NCBI GenBank assembly: GCA_029821635.1 | Contig: JALGSW010000028.1 | Coordinates: 1-41,212, forward strand | DNA: 41,212 nt | Origin: Candidatus Zipacnadia bacterium | Lineage (GTDB): Bacteria; Armatimonadota; Zipacnadia; Zipacnadales; UBA5352 | Reading direction: 5' to 3' | Shown: one piece after another, positions 2,143 through 34,740 of the stretch | Numbering within the stretch: the stretch's first letter is position 1 | Layout: every line of letters starts with the position of its first letter | Program-made: the position numbers and the translations under genes | The notes under the pieces: model-generated | Told to the model about the DNA's origin: nothing | What the model saw: the letters and a program-made list of their open reading frames with translations, nothing else | The model's database searches: none

Positions 2143-2179
2143 TTGACTCCCGCCACCCTCCTCACTATAATCAATAACA
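2143..2179 (+). promoter_or_regulatory. Consensus sigma70 promoter overlapped by a PerR-like box
   Basis: TTGACT (2143-2148), a 17-bp spacer and a perfect TATAAT (2166-2171) form a near-consensus promoter. Positions 2165-2179 (CTATAATCAATAACA) match 10 of the 14 fixed positions of the published PerR box TTATAATNATTATAA and overlap the -10. The next gene encodes a PerR-like repressor, so autorepression relieved by peroxide is a natural inference. The leader to the ATG at 2209 is about 30 nt. Confidence 0.7.
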
Positions 2180-2208
2180 GTTCGCATTACTATCTGGGTT
2201 TGATAATC

Positions 2209-2640
2209 ATGGCAGGAGAAGACAGGCTGGCGGCAAAGGTTCGAGAGACAGGCGGACGCATGACGCATCAGCGGCGTGCGGTGCTTGAGGCACTCGCGTC
2301 AGTGGATACGCACCCCACCGCCGCCGAGGTCTACGAGATGGTCCGCCAGGCGCTGCCGGACGTGAGCCAGGGCACCGTCTACCGCAACCTCCGCAAGCTG
2401 ATCGAGCTTGGCTACGCGCAGGAGCTTGACTACGGATCGGGCGCGTCGCATTTCGACGCGTGCGTGGAGCCGCACTACCACGTGCGCTGCACCGACTGCG
2501 GGCGTGTCGCGGATCTGCCGATACATAGCGAGCCCACGCCGTGCATCGACGAAGCTCGGCGGGCTGCAGACGGCTGGACGATCTCCGAGCACCGCGTTGA
2601 GTTCATGGGGCTCTGCCCCGGGTGTCGCAAGAGCGAGTAG
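2209..2640 (+). CDS. perR: PerR-type peroxide-sensing Fur-family repressor
   Basis: A 143-residue Fur-family protein: N-terminal winged helix (about 15-80, with the DVSQGTVYRNLRKL recognition region) and C-terminal dimerisation domain. Regulatory-metal ligands can be placed by family alignment at H35, D83, H89, H91 and D102. Asp at the last position (ADLP) is the PerR-type residue, where Fur has Glu. Two CxxC pairs (C94/C97 and C136/C139) would hold structural zinc. Start: ATG 2209 is preferred to the in-frame codon at 2143, which lies inside the -35 box. The gene heads a cluster of ROS-detoxifying genes, its expected regulon. PerR rather than Fur or Zur is likely but not proven. Confidence 0.85.
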   Translation: MAGEDRLAAKVRETGGRMTHQRRAVLEALASVDTHPTAAEVYEMVRQALPDVSQGTVYRNLRKLIELGYAQELDYGSGASHFDACVEPHYHVRCTDCGRVADLPIHSEPTPCIDEARRAADGWTISEHRVEFMGLCPGCRKSE

Positions 2641-2673
2641 CGTGACGTGCACTGATGAAGGAGGAGACGCACG

Positions 2674-3246
2674 ATGGAGCTCAAGGGCAGCCGGACCGAG
2701 AAGAACATCCTGACAGCGTTCGCGGGGGAGTCGCAGGCGCGCAACCGCTACGCCTACTTCGCCAGTCAGGCGAAGAAGGAGGGCTACGAGCAGATCGCGG
2801 CGATCTTCGCGGAGACCGCCGACCAGGAGAAGGAGCACGCGAAGCGGCTCTTCAAGTTCCTGGAGGGCGGCGAGGTTGAGGTGACCGCGGCGTTCCCGGC
2901 AGGCGTCATCGGCACGACCGCCGAGAACCTGAAGGCCTCCGCCGACGGCGAGAACCACGAGAACACGGTAATGTACCCCGAGTTCTCCGAGATCGCCGAG
3001 GAGGAGGGCTTCAAGCTGATCGCCGCCGCCTTCCGCTCGATCGGCAAGGCCGAGGTCGGCCACGAGAAGCGCTACCTGACGCTGCTGGACCACGTCGCTT
3101 CGGGCACGGTCTTCGAGCGCGAGAGCGAAGTCGTCTGGCGCTGCCGCAACTGCGGCTACATGAGCAATGGCACAGGCGCGCCGAACAAGTGCCCGGCATG
3201 TGACCACCCGCAGGCGCACTTCGAGGTCTACGCCGAACTGCAGTAG
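2674..3246 (+). CDS. rbr: Rubrerythrin (NADH/rubredoxin-linked peroxide reductase)
   Basis: 190 residues. The N-terminal ferritin-like four-helix domain carries diiron ligands in the E-S-Q-A-R segment (near residue 19), EKEH (near 53-56), the ENTVMYPEF/AEEEGF region and GKAEVGHEKRY. The C-terminal rubredoxin-like domain has CRNCGY and CPACDHP, a slightly expanded centre compared with classical rubrerythrin. It reduces H2O2 in the cytoplasm of anaerobes with electrons from rubredoxin. AAGGAGG (2658-2664) lies 9 bases before the ATG. The start is 33 bp downstream of perR, and the likely donor, rubredoxin, is encoded at 5025. Confidence 0.96.
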   Translation: MELKGSRTEKNILTAFAGESQARNRYAYFASQAKKEGYEQIAAIFAETADQEKEHAKRLFKFLEGGEVEVTAAFPAGVIGTTAENLKASADGENHENTVMYPEFSEIAEEEGFKLIAAAFRSIGKAEVGHEKRYLTLLDHVASGTVFERESEVVWRCRNCGYMSNGTGAPNKCPACDHPQAHFEVYAELQ

Positions 3247-3344
3247 CTCGTCTGGCGCATCAGACATGAACCGGCGGCACATCCGGCAAGCGTGTGCCGC
3301 CTCGTGTAGCGAATACTCAGACACAAGACAGGGAGGGCGTACCC

Positions 3345-3719
3345 ATGGCCGCTCCGATGGAAGTCTATAAGTGCGAGAAGTGCGGGAACATCGTCGAGGT
3401 ACTCCACGGAGGCCCCGGCGAGCTGTCGTGCTGCGGTCAGCCGATGACGCTGCTCGAGGCCGCGACCACCGATGAGGGCAAGGAGAAGCATGTGCCGGTC
3501 GTCGAGAAGATCGACGGCGGCTACCAGGTCACGGTCGGCAGCGTGCCGCACCCGATGACCGAGGCGCATCAGATCGAGTGGATCGAGCTGATCGCCGACG
3601 GCAAGGTCCTCCGGGCAAACCTCGACCCCACCGATGCGCCGAGTGCAACCTTCTGCACCGACGCGCAGAGCGTCGTCGTCCGCGAGCACTGCAACGTCCA
3701 CGGCATCTGGAAGGCGTAG
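3345..3719 (+). CDS. dfx: Desulfoferrodoxin (2Fe superoxide reductase)
   Basis: 124 residues. The N-terminal desulforedoxin domain has CEKCGN and the SCCGQP pair that bind Fe(SCys)4. The superoxide reductase domain shows the EKHVPVVEK loop (Glu-Lys-His), [14 protein letters not shown] and the C-terminal CNVHGIWKA, giving the expected His4-Cys iron centre. It reduces superoxide to peroxide, which rubrerythrin then removes. The codon at 3345 is chosen because [14 protein letters not shown] matches the family N-terminus and a GGGAGG lies shortly upstream; a longer frame from 3294 is less likely. Confidence 0.96.
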
Positions 3720-3770
3720 AGGCGGGCGCTCGCGGCTGAACGGCTGCTGAAAGGAGCCGTCTGACTCACC

Positions 3771-4967
3771 ATGCACGTCACGCTGACCGAAGGCATCAAC
3801 TGGGTAGGCGCAATCGACTGGACCATCCGCGATTTCCACGGCTATCACACCGGCCGCGGATCGACCTACAACGCCTACCTGGTGCAGGGCACGGAGAAGA
3901 CCGCGCTCATCGACACCGTCAAGCGCACCTACACCAACTCGCTGCTGGCGAATGTTGATGAGGTGGCCGGGCTCGGCGCGGTGGACTACATCGTCGCGAA
4001 CCACGCTGAACCCGACCACTCCGGCTCGCTGGCCGCTGCGATCGAGGCCACCGGCGCGACGCTCGTGGCCAACGAGAAGACCGTCGGCATCCTCGCGGCC
4101 TACTACGACACCTCCGGCTGGGAGATCGAGGTGGTCGCGACCGGCGACTCCCTCGACCTGGGCGGGCGCTCGCTCACCTTCGTGCAGGTGCCGATGGTGC
4201 ACTGGCCCGACTCGATGGTCAGCTACTGCCCTGAGGAGAAGATACTCTTCTCCAACGATGCCTTCGGTCAGCACATCGCCTCCTCTGGCCGCTTCGACGA
4301 CGAGAACGACCTGTCGGTCGTCATGCAGGAGGCGAAGACCTACTACGCCAACATCGTCATGCTCTACGGCCGCCCGATCGCGAAAGCGCTGGATGCCCTC
4401 GGCGGGCTGGAGATCGGCACCATCGCGCCCGCGCACGGCGTGGTCTGGCGCGCACACATCCCGGAGATCCTCGACGCCTACTCCAACTGGGTGCAGTGCC
4501 GGGCCCGGCCGAAGGTGCTCGTGATCTACGAGAGCATGTGGCACTCAACCGACTGCATGGCCCACGAGATCGTGAAGGGCGCAACCCGCGAGGGCGTCGA
4601 GGTCAAGCTCTTCGACGTTGGCGGCACGCACCGCACCGAGCTGGCGACCGAAATGCTCGACGCGGCAGCGGTCGCCTTCGGCTCGCCAACGCTCAACATG
4701 ACGCTGATGCCCGACATCGCGGGCGTGCTGACCTACATCAAGGGCCTCGCACCCAAGGGCAAGGCGGGCTTCGCGTTCGGCTCCTACGGCTGGGCACCGA
4801 GCGGCCCGAAGGCGGTCAACGAGTACCTTGAGGCGATGGACTTTGACATCCTGCGCGAGCCCCTCACCGCGCAGTGGAAGCCGAGCGAGGACGTGCTGGC
4901 GCAGTGCCGCGAGGCGGGCGCGCTGCTCGCCGACCGCGCGCAGGAGGCCCCGCAGGCCGGCGCGTGA
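3771..4967 (+). CDS. fprA: Flavodiiron protein (FprA-type O2/NO reductase)
   Basis: 398 residues, the usual size of a class A flavodiiron protein. The metallo-beta-lactamase-like domain carries H78-x-E80-x-D82-H83, H144, D163 and H222, the standard diiron ligands. A C-terminal flavodoxin domain starts near residue 248 (VLVIYESMWHST) and includes the FGSYGW FMN loop. It reduces O2 to water (or NO to N2O) with electrons from rubredoxin. AAGGAG at 3751-3756 is 14 bases from the ATG, a long spacing, but the N-terminus fits the family. Dfx lies 51 bp upstream and rubredoxin 57 bp downstream. Confidence 0.95.
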   Translation: MHVTLTEGINWVGAIDWTIRDFHGYHTGRGSTYNAYLVQGTEKTALIDTVKRTYTNSLLANVDEVAGLGAVDYIVANHAEPDHSGSLAAAIEATGATLVANEKTVGILAAYYDTSGWEIEVVATGDSLDLGGRSLTFVQVPMVHWPDSMVSYCPEEKILFSNDAFGQHIASSGRFDDENDLSVVMQEAKTYYANIVMLYGRPIAKALDALGGLEIGTIAPAHGVVWRAHIPEILDAYSNWVQCRARPKVLVIYESMWHSTDCMAHEIVKGATREGVEVKLFDVGGTHRTELATEMLDAAAVAFGSPTLNMTLMPDIAGVLTYIKGLAPKGKAGFAFGSYGWAPSGPKAVNEYLEAMDFDILREPLTAQWKPSEDVLAQCREAGALLADRAQEAPQAGA

Positions 4968-24955: not shown

Positions 24956-25393
24956 CTACGGTACGAGCTCGGTGTCCACCTGGCAGCCCTCGTCGTCCAC
25001 CTCGTCTTTTGCGCCGCGCATCATGAACAGATCGCGGGTCGGCTGCGCCAGCTCGAAGTCCTTCGAGAATGTGATTGAGCCGGAGTTGCACGAGTAGGCG
25101 CACTGGCCGCAGAACACGCAGCGGTCCATCTCGAACTCCACGTGCCCGACGGTCTCCTTCTTGCCATCCTCGCGCTCGACGCGCTTGCGCACAACCTTGA
25201 TGACGTCGGCCGGGCAGTCGCGCTGGCACAGGCCGCACAGGGTGCAGCTCTCGGGGTCATACTTCATCCTGCCCCGGAAGCGGTCCGGCGGGGTCAGTCG
25301 CTCGATCGGATACATGACGGTCGCGGGCTTGCGCACGAGCAGCGACTCCATCAGTTCCATCGCCATCGCTGCGATGCTGAACTTGCGGGCCAT
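24956..25393 (-). CDS. Group 4 hydrogenase 2x[4Fe-4S] subunit (NuoI/MbhN-like)
   Basis: 145 residues. Two ferredoxin-type clusters: C50-x2-C53-x2-C56-x3-C60-P and C92-x2-C95-x2-C98-x3-C102. The spacing is that of NuoI and MbhN. It would carry electrons from ferredoxin to the proximal cluster of the small subunit. It is the last gene of the operon: start 25393 (GGGAG 8 bases upstream), 3 bp after the NuoH-like stop. The C-terminal 40 residues are acidic and variable. Confidence 0.93.
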   Translation of the reverse strand: MARKFSIAAMAMELMESLLVRKPATVMYPIERLTPPDRFRGRMKYDPESCTLCGLCQRDCPADVIKVVRKRVEREDGKKETVGHVEFEMDRCVFCGQCAYSCNSGSITFSKDFELAQPTRDLFMMRGAKDEVDDEGCQVDTELVP

Positions 25394-26459: not shown

Positions 26460-27623
26460 TTACGCTCTGCGGCCCAGCTTCACCAGCTCGGACCAGGTCA
26501 TCGTGCGGCTGTCGCCGGAGTTCACGTCGTCCAGCTCGACCATCCGGTCCGTGCATGAGAAGCACGGGTCGATCGACGCGAAGGCGATCGGTATGTCCGC
26601 GATTTGCCCGCCCTTGACCATCTCGAGCGAGACGGGCAGGTTCGCGAGGGTTGGTGTCCGGATCTTCACGCGCTCGGGCACGTCCGTACCGTTGCTGCGC
26701 ACGTAGTAGATCAGCTCGCCCCGCTGCGCCTCGATCCGCACCACGGCCTCGCCCTCGGGCACCTTGCGCGGGAAGCGCATGTTCACGTCACCCTCGGGCA
26801 TCATGTCGAGGCACTGGAAGCAGATGTCGCAGGCGTCGATAACCTCCCGCACGCGCACGAGCGTCCGCCCCAGCACATCGCACAGCTCGGACGTGCGGAT
26901 CGGGAACTCGACCTTGTCATACTGCAGGTACGGGAAGGCGCGGCGCACATCGTAGCCGACGCCCGAGGCCCGCAGAACCGGGCCGCACGCGCCAAGCTCC
27001 ACGCAGCGCTCGCCCGAGACCGCGCCGACGTTGGCGGTGCGCTGGAGGAAGGTCTGCTCGCTCGTCGCGATGTCCGCGTAGTGCTCCGCGCGGTCGCGCA
27101 GGAACTGCAGGCCCTCGCGGATCTTCCCGACCATCTCGTCGGTGATGTCGTAGCGCACGCCACCGAGCATGGTCATCGCGTAGTGTCCGCGGTTGCCCGA
27201 GACGGTCTCGAGGATGTCCTGAATGACCTCGCGGTCGCGCCAGACATACATGAACAGCGTCTCGAAGCCGATCTCGTGGCCCGCCACACCCAGCCAGAGC
27301 ATGTGGCTGTGGATGCGCTCGAACTCGTGCATGAGCATGCGGATCCACTGAGCGCGCTCGGGGATCTCCACCCCCACGATGGCCTCGACGGCCTGGCAGA
27401 AGGCCAGGGTGTGCGCGTTGGAGCAGATGCCGCAGACGCGCTCACACAGGTAGAGGTCCTGCACGTAGTTGCGCTCCGAGCAGCTTCGCTCGATGGAGCG
27501 GTGCACATAACCAATGCGGATGTCGGCGTCAACGACCAGCTCGCCATCCACGGTGAACCGCAGGTTCTCTGGCTCCTTGAGAGCCGGATGCTGCGGACCG
27601 ATAGGGAACGAAAGCTTAGCCAT
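26460..27623 (-). CDS. Group 4 [NiFe]-hydrogenase large subunit (NuoD/MbhL-like)
   Basis: 387 residues. It resembles complex I NuoD but keeps both metal-binding motifs of a [NiFe] hydrogenase: C64-G-I-C67 within [11 protein letters not shown], and C354-F-S-C357 within DPCFSCTDR. NuoD has lost these. The start [18 protein letters not shown] is MbhL/EchE-like. It should hold the H2-forming site, fed by ferredoxin. Twenty-seven residues follow the last Cys motif; whether they are cleaved is unknown. ATG 27623 lies inside the last codons of the NuoC-like gene (8-bp overlap), showing coupling. No hyp maturation genes are in the window. Confidence 0.93.
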
Positions 27624-28092: not shown

Positions 28093-28665
28093 CTAGCTCT
28101 GCCCGGACCGGTCGCCCCGAGCGGGGCTCTGGCCCAGCGATGTCTCGGTATCTCCACGCATCTCGTCTATATCCTCGGGGGTGTAGACCAGCCCCGTAGT
28201 GTCTTGCGTGGCCTCGATCTCCTTGACCAGCGCCTCCGCCTGCGGGTCGAGGGTTGCGAGGAGTTTGAGGACGCCGTACGCGATTGCGTCCGGCCGCGCC
28301 GGGCAGCCCGGCACGTACATGTTGACCGGCATCGCCGCGTCAACCCCGCCCAGCACGTTGTAGCCGGGGTAGAACGGCGCGCCGGAAACCGCGCAGGTGC
28401 CGACCGCCACGACGAACTTCGGCTCGGCGACCTGCTCGTACACCCTGACCACGCGGTCACGGATCTGCCGCGTCACCGGGCCCGTCGCCATCACGACGTC
28501 CGCATGACGCGGACTACCCTCAAGCAACACTCCGAAGCGTTCGAGGTCGAAGCGCGGCATCAGTGCCGCCACGATCTCGATGTCACAGCCATTGCACGAA
28601 CCGCAGTTGAGATGGCAGACCCAGGGACTCTTACCCCGTGCCCACTTTACCAGTCCATTCAGCAT
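28093..28665 (-). CDS. Group 4 [NiFe]-hydrogenase small subunit (NuoB/MbhJ-like)
   Basis: 190 residues. Proximal [4Fe-4S] ligands fit C24 and C27 (GSCNGCDIE), C91 (VGTCAVSG) and C121 (VPGCPARPDAI). Two more Cys, C17 and C21, precede them. The text SPWVCHLNCGSCNGCDIEIVAAL is closer to Mbh/Ech/Hyc small subunits than to NuoB, which has an adjacent CC pair. ATG 28665 is chosen with GAGGG 6 bases upstream; the longer frame to 28773 overlaps the preceding gene. About 50 C-terminal residues are polar and probably disordered. Confidence 0.93.
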   Translation of the reverse strand: MLNGLVKWARGKSPWVCHLNCGSCNGCDIEIVAALMPRFDLERFGVLLEGSPRHADVVMATGPVTRQIRDRVVRVYEQVAEPKFVVAVGTCAVSGAPFYPGYNVLGGVDAAMPVNMYVPGCPARPDAIAYGVLKLLATLDPQAEALVKEIEATQDTTGLVYTPEDIDEMRGDTETSLGQSPARGDRSGQS

Positions 28666-28709: not shown

Positions 28710-29036
28710 TTAGTCCTTGAACAGAATGACGATCGCGACAAGGCCCACTACGAGATACGATCCGGCCAGCCATACAAACGCGTGACCCGGGGTTGTCCCG
28801 AGCACCAGCGCCACGACATCCAGCAGCGTGAAGATGAAGGCCGCGTGGAACAGATGATACGCGGTCGGGAACGAGCTGGCCTCCACATTCTCACCACAGG
28901 CGTACGTCTTCAGCTTCCCGCCCACCGCGCGCGACGCGGGGGCGAGCGCCTTGCCAAACAGGTAGAGCAGCCATCCGGCAAACATGCTCATACCGAAAAC
29001 CGTGACCGGGTGATACAGCACACCTGACGCAGTCAT
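28710..29036 (-). CDS. NuoA-like membrane subunit
   Basis: 108 residues, three predicted transmembrane helices. The loop KLKTYACGENVEASSFP with the YxCGE motif is that of NuoA. The second helix has LLDVVALVL where NuoA normally has an acidic FDVE, so the family's membrane Glu appears lost. It probably links the hydrophilic arm to the membrane arm. GGAGG lies 9-10 bases upstream. The gap to the antiporter-like gene upstream is 117 bp, the longest in this operon, and could hold an internal promoter, though none is clear. Confidence 0.85.
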   Translation of the reverse strand: MTASGVLYHPVTVFGMSMFAGWLLYLFGKALAPASRAVGGKLKTYACGENVEASSFPTAYHLFHAAFIFTLLDVVALVLGTTPGHAFVWLAGSYLVVGLVAIVILFKD

Positions 29037-29153: not shown

Positions 29154-30644
29154 CTACATCCCGCCGCCGATCAGAGACGCCACGTACTCGGCGGCCGGAT
29201 CGACGATCACGAGCCCGATGTCGGGCAGTACGCCCAGCAGCAGCGTGAGGATCGCCAGTGTCACGATCGGCAGCACGACCAGGAAGGGCAGGGGCTTGAG
29301 CGTCCGCGGCCGGTCCTCGGGCACGGGCCCGAAGACGATGGTGTTGAGCGCGTCCAGGTAGTAGAACAGGGATATGACGCTGTTGAGCACGAGCATGACG
29401 ACCATGAAGGTTCCCCAGCCGCCGACGTCGGCGCCGGCCTTGGCGATGAGCACCTTCGAGAACCAGCCGTTGAACGGCGGCGTGCCAGCGAGGGCGAGGG
29501 CGAAGAACAGGAAGCAGATCCCCACGATCGGGAACTTGCGACCGATGCCCGAGAGCTTGCGCATGTCCCGCGTGCCGAGGACCCACAGGAAGGCCCCGGC
29601 GCAGAGGAAGGCTCCGCCCTTCATGATCGCGTGGTTGAGGATGTGATACAGCGCGCCGCGCATGCCGCTGAAGCCGGCCGCCATCGGGAAGCCCAGCGCG
29701 AGCCCCATGCCCATCAGGATGTAGCCCATCTGCGCGACGGACGAGTAGGCGAGCATGCGCTTGAGGTCGCTCTGGCGCAGCGCGATCAGGTTACCGACCA
29801 GCATCGTCACCAGCGAGAGCGCCACGAGCAGCATCCCGAAGTTGACCGTGCCGAGGGCGATGAGCGCCTTGAGCATGGTGATCAGGCCGGCCTGGATGAC
29901 GATCCCCGAGAGCATCGCGGAGATGCCGCTGGGGGCGGCCGAGTGCGCGTCCGGGAGCCACGTGTGCATCGGGACGATCGCGGCCTTCACGCCGAAGCCG
30001 ATGACCATCAGCGCGACGACGGCCATCAGTTGCGAGCTCCCCGCGTGCGACTCGAGCAGGGAGGGCAGCGCGGCCAGATCGAGCGTGCCGGTCCAGGAGT
30101 AGACGACGCCGATCCCCAGCAGCGCGAGCAGCGAGCCCACGGTGGAGAGCACCAGGTACTTCACGCCCGCCTCGACCGGCTCCCACTCCTCGCGCTCGAA
30201 TGCCACGAGCACGAAGGACGAGATGCTCATCGCCTCAAAGAGCACGTAGAGGGTGAAGAGATCGCCCGCGAAGCCCACGCCCACGATGCCGGCGGTCATC
30301 AGCAAGAGCAGCGCGTAGAACTTGCCGATGTTGCGCCTGTGCATGTAGCGCATCGAGTAGATGACGACCAGCAGCGAGAGCAGCAGCGCTGTGGCGGCGA
30401 GGAAGACGCCCAGGTAGTTGCCGGACAGGTAGGCCTGCAGGCGCGTCTGCGCGTACGAGGCCGGCCAGCCGACGGACATGCCCTCTTCGAGGGTCTGCCA
30501 GACCTGGTAGACGGAGGAGCCCGACCCCAACAGCGCCAGGAAGGCGATGAAGCCGGTGAGCGTGCGGCTGCGCGAGAGCCGGCCTACGAGGTAGACCAGT
30601 AGCGCCGCGCCTGACAGTATCGCGATGGAGAGAAGCACTTCCAT
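29154..30644 (-). CDS. Antiporter-like subunit (NuoN/MrpD/MbhH-like)
   Basis: 496 residues, about 14 transmembrane helices. Family features: Glu in VLFEAMSISSF, Lys in GFGVKAAIVPMHTWLPDAHSAAPS, and SDLKRMLAYSSVAQMGYI, the conserved charged positions of the ion-translocation chain. It should pump H+ or Na+. It starts 4 bp after the NuoL-like stop. It is the only NuoM/NuoN-type protein in the operon, whereas complex I has both. Distinguishing MrpD, NuoM and NuoN would need a tree. Confidence 0.92.
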   Translation of the reverse strand: MEVLLSIAILSGAALLVYLVGRLSRSRTLTGFIAFLALLGSGSSVYQVWQTLEEGMSVGWPASYAQTRLQAYLSGNYLGVFLAATALLLSLLVVIYSMRYMHRRNIGKFYALLLLMTAGIVGVGFAGDLFTLYVLFEAMSISSFVLVAFEREEWEPVEAGVKYLVLSTVGSLLALLGIGVVYSWTGTLDLAALPSLLESHAGSSQLMAVVALMVIGFGVKAAIVPMHTWLPDAHSAAPSGISAMLSGIVIQAGLITMLKALIALGTVNFGMLLVALSLVTMLVGNLIALRQSDLKRMLAYSSVAQMGYILMGMGLALGFPMAAGFSGMRGALYHILNHAIMKGGAFLCAGAFLWVLGTRDMRKLSGIGRKFPIVGICFLFFALALAGTPPFNGWFSKVLIAKAGADVGGWGTFMVVMLVLNSVISLFYYLDALNTIVFGPVPEDRPRTLKPLPFLVVLPIVTLAILTLLLGVLPDIGLVIVDPAAEYVASLIGGGM

Positions 30645-30648
30645 GGCT

Positions 30649-32406
30649 TTATCCCCAACCCAGGAACATCAGCAGCACGGCGATGAAGCCTATCGCCAGC
30701 CACAGGCTGTTGTAGTTGAGATCCCCCGTCTGGAAGAGGCTGAGCACGGACGCAACCGCCCGCATCAGCACGACCCAGAAGCCCCAGACCCAGTCGAAGA
30801 AGCCCTTGGTGTCGGTGACCAGGTCCGCCCACATCTGCGGACCCTCCGGCACCGGCGCTCCTCGCCGGCCCCACTGCACCCCCAGCCACACGAATATCGC
30901 CACCACCGCCAACCCCACCAGGATCAGCGGGCTGGCGAACGTGTGGTGCCATAGCTCCCCGAGCTCTACCACGGGCACCACATGGTGGGACAGCAGCTTC
31001 CCGAGGTTCGTGGAGTAGGCGCCCACGTGCAGCCACGAGAACAGCGTTCCCGCCGCGAGCAGCCCGAGCGGGACGGTCATCTGCCACGGCGACTCGTGCG
31101 CGTCGGCCTCCGTGCGCGGCTCCGCCTGGAAGGTCAGCCAGTACATCCGCCACGAGTAAACCGCGGTAAGCAACGCGGTGATAATCAGCAACACCAGCGG
31201 GCCTATCTGGCCGGAGGCGCTCAGCGCCTCGAAGATCGCGTCCTTCGACCAGAAGCCGTTGAACAGCGGGATGCCCGCGAGCGCCATCGTGCCGATCAGA
31301 AAGGCCAGGTGCGTGACCGGCATCGAGCGCTTCAGGCCTCCCATGTCGTACATGTTCCGGGTGTGCGTGGCGTGGATGACCGAGCCGGCGCACAGGAACA
31401 GCAGGGCCTTGAAGATGGCGTGGTTCATCAGATGGAACTGGCTCGCGAACACCGAAGCCGCGCCCACCGCCGCCATCATGTAGCCGAGCTGCGAGATGGT
31501 CGAGAAAGCCAGCACCCGCTTGAGGTCCTTCTCCACGAGCGCGAGCAGTGCCGCGAGCAGCGCGGAGATCGCGCCGATCCAGGCCAGCGCCGGCAGCCAC
31601 CAGGAGATGGCCGCGAACATCGGCAGCGTCCGCACACACAGGTAGATCCCTGCGTTGACCAGCGTGGCCGCGTGGATCAGGGCGCTGATCGTGGTGGGCG
31701 CCTCCATTGCGTCGGGCAACCACACATGCAACGGGAACTGCGCCGACTTGCCCACGGCGCCCGCGAGGAAGCCCGCGCCCGCGATCGCCAGCAGGTGGTA
31801 GGGGATCTGCCCCGCCACCGCGGCCTGGATGGTCGCCCGGATGCTGAAGGGGTCCTCAGCGCCGAGGTTGCGCATGGCCGACCAGAGGACCGCGACGCCC
31901 ACGAGCAGGCCGATGTCACCGAAGCGTGTGACGATGAACGCCTTCGTGCCCGCCTGCCGCGCCTTCGCGCGCTTGTACTCATACGCGATCAGCGCGAAGG
32001 AGCAGAAGCCGATGATCTCCCAGAAGACGTAGAGCACCAGGAAGCTGTCCGCGAGGGCCAGCGCGATCATCGAGCCGATGAACAGGAGCGTGAGGAAGTA
32101 GTAGCGGGTGGGCGGGTACTCCTTCTCGAGGTCCTCCATGTACCTGATCGAGTAGAGGACCGCGAGGGAGCCGATGCAGCCTGCAATGGCCGCGACATAC
32201 ATCCCGACACCGGTGAGCTGGAGCCCGAAAGTGGCGTCGATGCCGGGGATCCAGTAGAGCGCGCCGATCTCCTGACCGTTGGCCGCGCTAATCAGCGCCA
32301 GGGTCAGCGCGGCGGTCGCGAATCCGACCAGCACCGAGTACCACTTCATCAGCCGCTCGTTGATCGCCCCGAATACCGGGACAAGCAGGCAGCCGCCGAG
32401 CGGCAC
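30649..32406 (-). CDS. Antiporter-like subunit (NuoL-like)
   Basis: 585 residues, about 16 transmembrane helices. Conserved segments: FWEIIGFCSFALIAYEY (Glu), VGKSAQFPLHVWLPDAMEAPT (Lys), EKDLKRVLAFSTISQLGYM (Lys), and the long C-terminal part with terminal helices typical of NuoL's lateral arm. It pumps H+ or Na+. GTG 32406 is the first standard start in frame, 43 bp after the NuoK-like stop, but lacks a good ribosome site. The conserved hydrophobic N-terminus seems to begin upstream (ELLAILTIV), so the true start may be a rare codon near 32436 or a sequence error. Confidence 0.92.
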   Translation of the reverse strand: MPLGGCLLVPVFGAINERLMKWYSVLVGFATAALTLALISAANGQEIGALYWIPGIDATFGLQLTGVGMYVAAIAGCIGSLAVLYSIRYMEDLEKEYPPTRYYFLTLLFIGSMIALALADSFLVLYVFWEIIGFCSFALIAYEYKRAKARQAGTKAFIVTRFGDIGLLVGVAVLWSAMRNLGAEDPFSIRATIQAAVAGQIPYHLLAIAGAGFLAGAVGKSAQFPLHVWLPDAMEAPTTISALIHAATLVNAGIYLCVRTLPMFAAISWWLPALAWIGAISALLAALLALVEKDLKRVLAFSTISQLGYMMAAVGAASVFASQFHLMNHAIFKALLFLCAGSVIHATHTRNMYDMGGLKRSMPVTHLAFLIGTMALAGIPLFNGFWSKDAIFEALSASGQIGPLVLLIITALLTAVYSWRMYWLTFQAEPRTEADAHESPWQMTVPLGLLAAGTLFSWLHVGAYSTNLGKLLSHHVVPVVELGELWHHTFASPLILVGLAVVAIFVWLGVQWGRRGAPVPEGPQMWADLVTDTKGFFDWVWGFWVVLMRAVASVLSLFQTGDLNYNSLWLAIGFIAVLLMFLGWG

Positions 32407-32448: not shown

Positions 32449-32745
32449 TCACCCCTTCAGCCGCCGAAGAGCCGTGATCGAGAGGCTCTTGTTATGTTGG
32501 TAGGCGGCAACCACCAGGGAGAGTGCGATTGCCACGGTGACAGCTTCGATCAGGATCGTGGTGACGACCACCGCCTGCGCGGCGGCCAGCGTCCCGCTCT
32601 GCGCCCCGCCGAGGATGAACACCAACGAGACGCCGCGCGCCATGATCTCCAGCCCAATGATGATCTGAAGCAGGTTCGTGCGGGTGATGGTGGCGTAGAG
32701 GCCGATAATGACCAGCGCCACGCCCCCGGCAGCATAGCCACTCAT
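32449..32745 (-). CDS. NuoK/MrpC/MbhG-like membrane subunit
   Basis: 98 residues with three transmembrane helices. The two conserved membrane glutamates appear in IIIGLEIMARGVSLVFI and ILIEAVTVAIALSLVV, key positions for proton transfer in NuoK and MrpC. The ATG (32745) shares one base with the stop of the preceding gene (TGATG), showing translational coupling. The next gene is NuoL-like, as in complex I. Confidence 0.92.
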   Translation of the reverse strand: MSGYAAGGVALVIIGLYATITRTNLLQIIIGLEIMARGVSLVFILGGAQSGTLAAAQAVVVTTILIEAVTVAIALSLVVAAYQHNKSLSITALRRLKG

Positions 32746-32969
32746 CAGCGCTCAACCCTCTCCTTGACGAGCACCAGCACGCCGAAGGTGCCGGCCAGAA
32801 TGATCATCATCTGGCCGATCAGATCCGGCGCCCGTAGGTTCCACAGCATTTGCCGGAAAGATCGGGTCTCCCCGACCATCATCCCCACCGGCTCCGGCTC
32901 GATGAAAAAAATGTACAGTAGCCCGGCCAGGATCACGACCGAGACCAGGACGCCCGCAGCCTTAGTCAT
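32745..32969 (-). CDS. Small membrane subunit (MbhE / NuoJ C-terminal half-like)
   Basis: 74 residues: one N-terminal transmembrane helix (VLVSVVILAGLLYIFFI), a short loop, and a second helix in APDLIGQMMIILAGTFGVLVLVKERVE. This looks like the C-terminal half of NuoJ, or MbhE/MrpB-type proteins. Together with the gene before it, it would make up a split NuoJ. It overlaps the upstream gene by 8 bp and the downstream gene by 1 bp. Confidence 0.75.
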   Translation of the reverse strand: MTKAAGVLVSVVILAGLLYIFFIEPEPVGMMVGETRSFRQMLWNLRAPDLIGQMMIILAGTFGVLVLVKERVER

Positions 32970-33213
32970 TCTGCTCTCTCCCCTCCGTCAGCGCGATGAC
33001 CGCCAGGAAGAGGACAGTGATGAAGCCCGCGCACACGCTCAACTCGAACATCGCCGCCCACGGAGCGCCGAAGTGGTAGAACATCGCGGCGAGTATCGCG
33101 GACATCACTGCCAGTGACAGCGCGCCCTTGAGCAGGTCGCGCAGGTACACTGCCAGCACCGCCAATAGCAGGACCAGACCGAGAGCAACCCAGTTGAGAA
33201 CCTGGACCGCCAT
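32962..33213 (-). CDS. Small membrane subunit (MbhD / NuoJ N-terminal half-like)
   Basis: 83 residues, three transmembrane helices: LGLVLLLAVLAVYL, GALSLAVMSAILAAMFYHF, and AMFELSVCAGFITVLFLAVIAL. The Glu in the third is the family's conserved acidic residue. It matches MbhD/DUF4040-type or NuoJ N-terminal segments. ATG 33213 follows AAGGAG by 10 bases; the open frame to 33243 adds only basic residues. It is the first gene of the hydrogenase operon. No clear promoter was found in the 300-bp spacer upstream. Confidence 0.8.
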   Translation of the reverse strand: MAVQVLNWVALGLVLLLAVLAVYLRDLLKGALSLAVMSAILAAMFYHFGAPWAAMFELSVCAGFITVLFLAVIALTEGREQND

Positions 33214-33516: not shown

Positions 33517-34740
33517 TCACGCCGTTGCCGTCAGCACCTCGACGGTATCGCGCGCGATCATCAGCTCTTCGTCGGTCCTGATCACCAGCAGGTGCGTCGG
33601 CGAAGCGTCCGTCCCGATCGCCGTGATCCCGTCGTCAAAGGGCAGCGGGTGCGTGTTCTTCGCCGGATCGACCTCGATGCCGAGGAACTCCAGGTCCTGC
33701 ACGCACCACTTCCGCTGCAGGTGATCGTTCTCACCGATCCCGCCGGTGAGCACCACGCAGTTGACCCCGCCCATCGCCGCTGCGTAGGCGCCGATGTACT
33801 TGCGCACGCGGTAGGCGAACAGGTCCATCGCCAGCCTCGCGCGGTCGTTGCCCTCGTTCGCGGCCTTCTGCAGGTCGCGCATGTCGTTGCTGATGCCAGA
33901 CAGGCCCTTGAGGCCCGATTCCTTGTTCAGTGTGTTATCGATCTCGCCAAGTCCCATCCCGAGCGTCTGCGCGAGGTAGATCACGATCGCCGGGTCAAGG
34001 TCGCCGCAGCGGGTGCCCATCAGCAGGCCCTCAAGCGGTGTGAAGCCGAGGGTGTTGTCGATCGACACACCGGCTTTCACGGCCGTCATCGAGCAGCCGT
34101 TGCCGAGGTGGCAGGTGACGATGCGGTGCTCCTCGTCCGGAATGCCCCGCTCGCGCAGGTACTGCTCGGCCCGCAGCGCAACGTAACGGTGCGAGGTGCC
34201 GTGGAAGCCGTAGCGCCGGATGCCGTTCTCGGCGTACATCTCCCACGGCAGCCCGTAGATGAACGCGTGGGGCGGCATCGTCTGGTGGAAGGCCGTGTCG
34301 AAGACCGCCACGTGCGGCACGTTCGGGAGGAGCTTGCGGGCGGCGCGGATACCCATCAGGTTCGGCGGATTGTGCAGCGGCGCGAGCTGTCCGAAGCGGT
34401 CCACCGCGTCCTCGACTGCGTCGTTGATGACCACGGATGAGGCGAACTCCTCGCCACCGTGGACGACGCGATGACCGACCGCATCGATGGCCGCGAGCGA
34501 GTCGATCACTCCCGCCTCGTCGCCGCTGAGAGCCGCCATGGCCTGCCCAAAGGCAACGGAGTGGTCCGGCATCGCGACCTCGGCCTCATACTCCCGGCCA
34601 TCGTGCGTCTCCTGCTCGATATTGGCGCCCTCGTCGCCGACCCGCTCGCACAGGCCCCGTGCGAGGGACTGCTCCGCGTCCATGTCATAGAGCTCATACT
34701 TCAGGGAGGAACTTCCGGCGTTGACTACCAGTACGTTCAA
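33517..34740 (-). CDS. ackA: Acetate kinase
   Basis: 407 residues. It interconverts acetyl phosphate + ADP with acetate + ATP, the energy-yielding end of acetate fermentation. Motifs: MNVLVVNAGSSSLKYELYDM at the start, VGHRVVHGGE (catalytic Arg region), VAVFDTAFHQTMP, YGFHGTSHRYV, HLGNGCSMTAV and LTGGIGEND. The start is TTG 34740, with GGAGGT 6 bases upstream. It is the last gene of the rsmD-coaD-coiled coil-ackA unit. Phosphotransacetylase is not in the window. Confidence 0.95.
   Translation of the reverse strand: MNVLVVNAGSSSLKYELYDMDAEQSLARGLCERVGDEGANIEQETHDGREYEAEVAMPDHSVAFGQAMAALSGDEAGVIDSLAAIDAVGHRVVHGGEEFASSVVINDAVEDAVDRFGQLAPLHNPPNLMGIRAARKLLPNVPHVAVFDTAFHQTMPPHAFIYGLPWEMYAENGIRRYGFHGTSHRYVALRAEQYLRERGIPDEEHRIVTCHLGNGCSMTAVKAGVSIDNTLGFTPLEGLLMGTRCGDLDPAIVIYLAQTLGMGLGEIDNTLNKESGLKGLSGISNDMRDLQKAANEGNDRARLAMDLFAYRVRKYIGAYAAAMGGVNCVVLTGGIGENDHLQRKWCVQDLEFLGIEVDPAKNTHPLPFDDGITAIGTDASPTHLLVIRTDEELMIARDTVEVLTATA

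Follow-up and report, generated by a model that had tools for sequence, protein, structure and literature searches.

The window analysed here, i.e., the whole stretch of 41,212 nucleotides from Candidatus Zipacnadia bacterium, carries on its minus strand an 11-gene operon that runs from 33213 to 24956 in the order J1-J2-K-L-N-A-B-C-D-H-I, with adjacent genes that either overlap or lie less than 120 bases apart. These genes, along with the one directly upstream of them, are the following:

33517..34740, minus strand: ackA, acetate kinase (PF00871), directly upstream; an associated gene, not a subunit
32962..33213, minus strand: J1, first half of a split NuoJ (MbhD, PF13244)
32745..32969, minus strand: J2, 74-aa membrane protein, second half of the split NuoJ (MbhE-like), overlapping both neighbours
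32449..32745, minus strand: K, NuoK/MbhG-like subunit (PF00420)
30649..32406, minus strand: L, antiporter-like subunit of the NuoL type, exceeding the TIGR01974 NDH_I_L cut-off
29154..30644, minus strand: N, antiporter-like subunit of the NuoN/MbhH type, best solved match MbhH
28710..29036, minus strand: A, NuoA-like membrane subunit with a weak PF00507 match and the motif YACGE
28093..28665, minus strand: B, NuoB/MbhJ-like small subunit, 190 aa, with CGSCNGCDIE (C24, C27) plus C91 and C121
27616..28080, minus strand: C, NuoC/MbhK-like subunit (PF00329), with an 8-base overlap with the D gene
26460..27623, minus strand: D, NuoD/MbhL-like predicted hydrogenase large subunit, 387 aa, with putative [NiFe] ligands C64, C67, C354 and C357
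25397..26377, minus strand: H, NuoH/MbhM-like membrane anchor (PF00146)
24956..25393, minus strand: I, NuoI/MbhN-like subunit with two CxxCxxCxxxC motifs, for two [4Fe-4S] clusters

The operon has no gene for NuoE, NuoF, NuoG or MrpE/F/G, and nothing encoded from ackA down to I gave a match to MrpE/F/G or MrpB. Its membrane arm resembles that of complex I and consists of A, H, the split J, K and the two antiporter-like subunits L and N. The split of NuoJ is read as that of MbhD/MbhE because the PF00499 match reaches into J2 when J1 and J2 are joined end to end; J2 is easily overlooked, and it was found in every related locus inspected.

The D gene starts with the ATG at 27623, with GGAGGGCGAGGAG upstream, and its stop occupies 26460-26462. 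The coordinates 26460-27623 given in the initial annotation are correct, and the strand, unstated there, is minus; a plus-strand reading of the same positions was rejected because these bases are non-coding on that strand. The translation contains all four of the cysteines that had been reported, namely C64/C67 within ERVCGIC and C354/C357 within DPCFSC. The initial annotation had also named cysteines lying off the L1 and L2 positions as the outcome that would overturn it, and an alignment to solved structures places them at the ligand positions, with C64/C67 aligning with C68/C71 of MbhL, C354/C357 with MbhL C374/C377, and the matching cysteines of HycE likewise. Chance is excluded as the source of the four aligned cysteines.

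Other residues of the catalytic subunit follow the same pattern. MbhL E21 has been described as a key residue for proton reduction, and H38 and Y87 of Nqo4 as quinone residues (PMC7684303). In the alignment, E17 of D corresponds to MbhL E21. Both quinone positions are changed, with K16 standing where complex I has H38 and G65 where it has Y87. E17 and the four cysteines are invariant across an alignment of 17 sequences, made of 11 members of the clade to which D belongs and six Ech-type proteins. NuoD-type proteins from other Armatimonadota and from two Actinomycetota have none of the four cysteines, and among the aligned structures MbsL has two of them, i.e., the first of each pair, and complex I none. 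The solved proteins nearest to D are MbhL of the Pyrococcus furiosus MBH (E-value 1.6e-84), HycE of the Escherichia coli formate hydrogenlyase (8e-75) and Nqo4 (6e-70), in this order.

It had been considered probable that automatic annotation would name D as NADH-quinone oxidoreductase subunit D, and this stands in part. The nearest named models are indeed NuoD and FpoD, but the NCBIfam NuoD models score below their cut-offs (NF004739, 357 bits against 360; TIGR01962, 308 against 459) and Pfam reports, in addition to Complex1_49kDa, a NiFeSe_Hases match over the N-terminal ligand region, so that a wrong name is likely rather than certain. AlphaFold models of D and A, with mean pLDDT values of 48 and 63, are both too poor for use because just nine close sequences were usable.

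Regarding the other subunits, B carries the CxxC proximal-cluster motif of hydrogenases and not the tandem CC of complex I, the cysteine pair of the small subunit being two residues apart in MBH and adjacent in complex I (PMC7684303). The best solved match of B is MbhJ (6cfw), to which it aligns without gaps, and in this region the proteins of complex I have three residues fewer; the small-subunit loop of MBS is likewise three residues shorter than that of MBH (PMC7684303). The best solved matches of L are the NuoL proteins of NDH-1/complex I, and for H the complex I match is slightly better than that to MbhM. Single sequences give a weak PF00507 match for A (E 0.006), with six of nine orthologues passing 0.01, and searches of solved structures with A and with the 74-aa J2 returned nothing useful.

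The clade to which D belongs is present in 13 of 291 Armatimonadota genomes. Nine of these carriers, including the genome of the window, fall in one family, hereafter f1 (73-100% identity), and the other four in a single genus, g15, of a second family, f4 (57-59%). The order of the operon is kept in both families, down to 57-59% identity of D. In one relative, the H gene (locus L008, 4927-5920) is broken over three reading frames, possibly by assembly frameshifts.

A tree was built from 57 large subunits, of which this clade contributed 12, and 4a, 4d and MBS are represented in it by single PDB sequences. Here, complex I and MBS split from the hydrogenases at 100/100, and the clade stands separate on the hydrogenase side with a support of 100/99. 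The Ech-type proteins form a clade of their own (100/100), and so do the HycE-type proteins, which include E. coli HycE (100/100). Branching among the hydrogenase clades is weakly supported (62/7 and 66/24), with a single MbhL reference, and their order is unsettled because of the long branches of the single PDB references; given this low support, the clade is not claimed to be the closest to complex I. An Ech (4e) identity was rejected for D, which lies outside the Ech-type clade and in an operon larger than the Ech type. The Ech-type set itself was recognised by its operon type and a 359-residue E subunit, and contains no named Ech reference.

None of the 13 carrier genomes lists a canonical NuoD at E <= 1e-30. 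These genomes are 86-98% complete, a range for which one absence is weak evidence and 13 of 13 is not. The remaining D homologues that they encode are 41-43% identical to D, and their frames span some 535-650 aa, a length that fits HycE-type proteins; they look like a second hydrogenase, and the one in the genome of the window has all four cysteines. NuoD proteins free of these cysteines occur in other genera of the same order.

Moreover, there are traces of a maturation pathway. In D, a 27-aa C-terminal tail, at 26460-26540 of the window, follows the CTDR motif, as in HycE, and the f1 orthologues are built in the same way. Each of the other nine family genomes has the HycI endopeptidase, which fits the HycE-like tail of D, and this endopeptidase was not found in the genome of the window (87.6% complete). 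HypD and HypF, the two hyp products sought, are both encoded on contig 130 of this genome. There, hypF lies in two frames (locus L023, 2116-4420), and it is a single frame in five relatives; either an assembly error or a real break could be the origin. The f4 orthologues (loci L058, L059 and L060) stop exactly at CTDR, without a cleavable tail, and a tail has been gained or lost inside one clade of group 4 hydrogenases.

The surroundings of the operon and the rest of the genome offer further context. The adjacency of ackA is kept in the five other f1 genomes whose contigs extend that far, and it was not seen in the f4 loci. Homologues of ferredoxin oxidoreductases are encoded in the genome, as is a sulfhydrogenase-like (group 3b-like) large subunit on contig 25. 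A second group 4 hydrogenase, resembling group 4b, lies on contig 27 (locus L015, 1465-9326). Its genes encode a C/D fusion that is HycE-like and has the four cysteines, a molybdopterin oxidoreductase, subunits of the iron-sulfur and flavin types, and one antiporter-like subunit. On contig 134 (locus L122, 150-4689), NuoE-like and NuoF-like genes are followed by HydG, recognised by TIGR03955 with 499 bits against a cut-off of 312, and this proximity points to an electron-bifurcating [FeFe] hydrogenase; PMC10290634 reports no [FeFe] hydrogenase in its Armatimonadota MAGs. Within the window itself, the translations at 2143-4967, read by eye, suggest a cluster for defence against oxygen, of the kind that anaerobes typically have, i.e., a row of genes for a Fur/PerR-like regulator, a rubrerythrin, a desulfoferrodoxin-like protein and an A-type flavoprotein.

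Judged from its sequence, D is very probably the large subunit that carries the catalytic site of a group 4 [NiFe] hydrogenase of the energy-converting kind, with 4g as the most probable group. This enzyme is encoded by the 11-gene operon and would couple ferredoxin-driven H2 evolution to ion export. The sequence features of group 4 are found: the L1 and L2 CxxC pairs, the CxxC of the small subunit, a NuoH-like anchor together with an antiporter-like subunit, and hyp genes. The initial annotation had argued that the product should be moved from a quinone reductase to such a hydrogenase, and this view is borne out by the four ligands, E17, the loss of the quinone residues and the CxxC of B, as well as by the placement on the hydrogenase side of the tree and the hyp maturation genes. 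The counterpoints to it are the missing HycI of this genome, the split hypF, the tail-less f4 orthologues and the weak NuoA match. Between H2 production and uptake, the two directions that the initial annotation had named, production is favoured.

In the mechanism that we propose, electrons would pass from reduced ferredoxin to the two [4Fe-4S] clusters of I, the expected entry point for ferredoxin, then to the proximal cluster of B and on to the Ni-Fe site of D, held by C64, C67, C354 and C357, where protons would be reduced to H2. The redox reaction would be coupled through the region of D, H and A to the complex I-like arm, with its pumps L and N, the split J and K, and this arm would export H+ or Na+. 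The enzyme may in this way re-oxidise the ferredoxin produced in the breakdown of sugar or pyruvate to acetate. We infer the ferredoxin donor, the usual direction of H2 evolution and the pumped ion from what is known of the family.

Several other readings deserve to be weighed. That the operon encodes a true complex I, or an Fpo-like enzyme reducing quinone or phenazine, with the cysteines as relics, is very improbable, even if NuoD and FpoD are the nearest named models of D, L and H are closest to complex I, and D retains the YDVRxxxPY segment of complex I. Such an enzyme is at odds with the replacement of H38 and Y87, with the invariance of the four cysteines and of the E21 equivalent, with the CxxC in B, and with the position of D outside the complex I/MBS clade (100/100); NuoD of complex I was rejected as the identity of D on the basis of K16/G65, the lack of a tandem CC in B and the scores below the NuoD cut-offs. 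A sulfane sulfur reductase (MBS/Mbx), or an Ehr-type complex lacking the metal site, would share the two-antiporter layout and, in MbsL, the YDVR segment, and is nonetheless hardly credible, as MbsL has only two of the four cysteines and D has all of them, the MBS loop is three residues shorter and B aligns gap-free to MbhJ, and Ehr complexes are defined by the lack of the ligands (PMC6349859); with no loss of [NiFe] ligands in D, this identity was rejected too.

The two remaining alternatives keep the hydrogenase and change its use. It is unlikely, if considerably less so than the foregoing, that the same enzyme works mainly in H2 uptake, with the ion gradient driving ferredoxin reduction, e.g., to supply a Wood-Ljungdahl pathway that reduces CO2. 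The HydDB table lists Ech-type group 4 enzymes as physiologically reversible, and PMC10290634 reports Wood-Ljungdahl genes in the class; against this, that paper calls the Zipacnadia heterotrophic, and the linkage to ackA in f1 suggests fermentation to acetate. A donor other than ferredoxin, such as formate, NADH delivered by a separate NuoEF-like pair, or F420, appears quite unlikely. An archaeal group 4g enzyme does adjoin an F420-reducing subunit (PMC12533140), and NuoF-like proteins are encoded in the genome of the window, but the operon contains no such gene, and one of the two NuoF homologues adjoins HydG. Ferredoxin-driven H2 evolution coupled to ion export is the reading that we retain.

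The assignment to HydDB group 4g is most probable by elimination and through a shared source: PMC10290634 gives 4b, 4g, 3b and 1a for these classes, and of its 64 MAGs from Zipacnadia (UBA5377), to which this genome belongs, HydDB assigned 4g to 16. The second group 4 enzyme of this genome is HycE-like and thereby 4b-like. HydDB describes 4g as a loosely clustered class with putative ferredoxin coupling and an undetermined role. The enzyme studied here shares with it the four cysteine ligands, the membrane-bound state and the antiporter-like subunits, whereas descriptions of other 4g enzymes link them to Mrp and this operon lacks MrpE/F/G genes. The likeness to the Pyrococcus MBH (4d) lies in D, B and N, which match MBH best, in the J subunit split as MbhD/MbhE, and in the same ligands and E21 equivalent; unlike MBH, the operon has a second pump of the NuoL type and a NuoA-like subunit, and an MBH-type Na+ antiport unit appears to be lacking because no MrpE/F/G- or MrpB-like genes were seen in it. 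With Ech (4e) it has in common the build of the hydrogenase core, D and the phylum's Ech-type proteins being 39-47% identical; the operons of the latter are smaller, and their large subunits form their own clade (100/100). Complex I is matched in subunits A, B, C, D, H, I, J, K, L and N, and best in H and L, but differs in that the operon here has the [NiFe] ligands and a split J, and lacks the quinone residues, the M antiporter-like subunit and the NADH module. Finally, the Pyrococcus MBS resembles it in the two antiporter-like subunits and in the YDVR of D, but has lost two ligands and reduces polysulfide at its proximal cluster (PMC7684303).

The occurrence of group 4g in Zipacnadia is already known; what is new is the anatomy of the operon and the absence of canonical NuoD from the 13 genomes. 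Neither the 11-gene build nor its link to a partial Nuo complex was found in the open-access papers searched. Since the gene set joins a hydrogenase site to a complex I-like membrane arm, it is a useful comparison for the origin of complex I, and we tentatively suggest, as a possibility rather than an expectation, that a hydrogenase with a near-complete complex I-type arm replaces complex I in two Armatimonadota families, with a build near the step between hydrogenase and complex I. According to PMC10290634, a partial Nuo complex occurs in 70 of 77 Armatimonadota MAGs and a complete one in none. In the families that carry the clade, and in these only, this "partial Nuo" is likely the hydrogenase itself; if so, their predicted metabolism would shift from quinone respiration to an H2-evolving fermentation with ion pumping.
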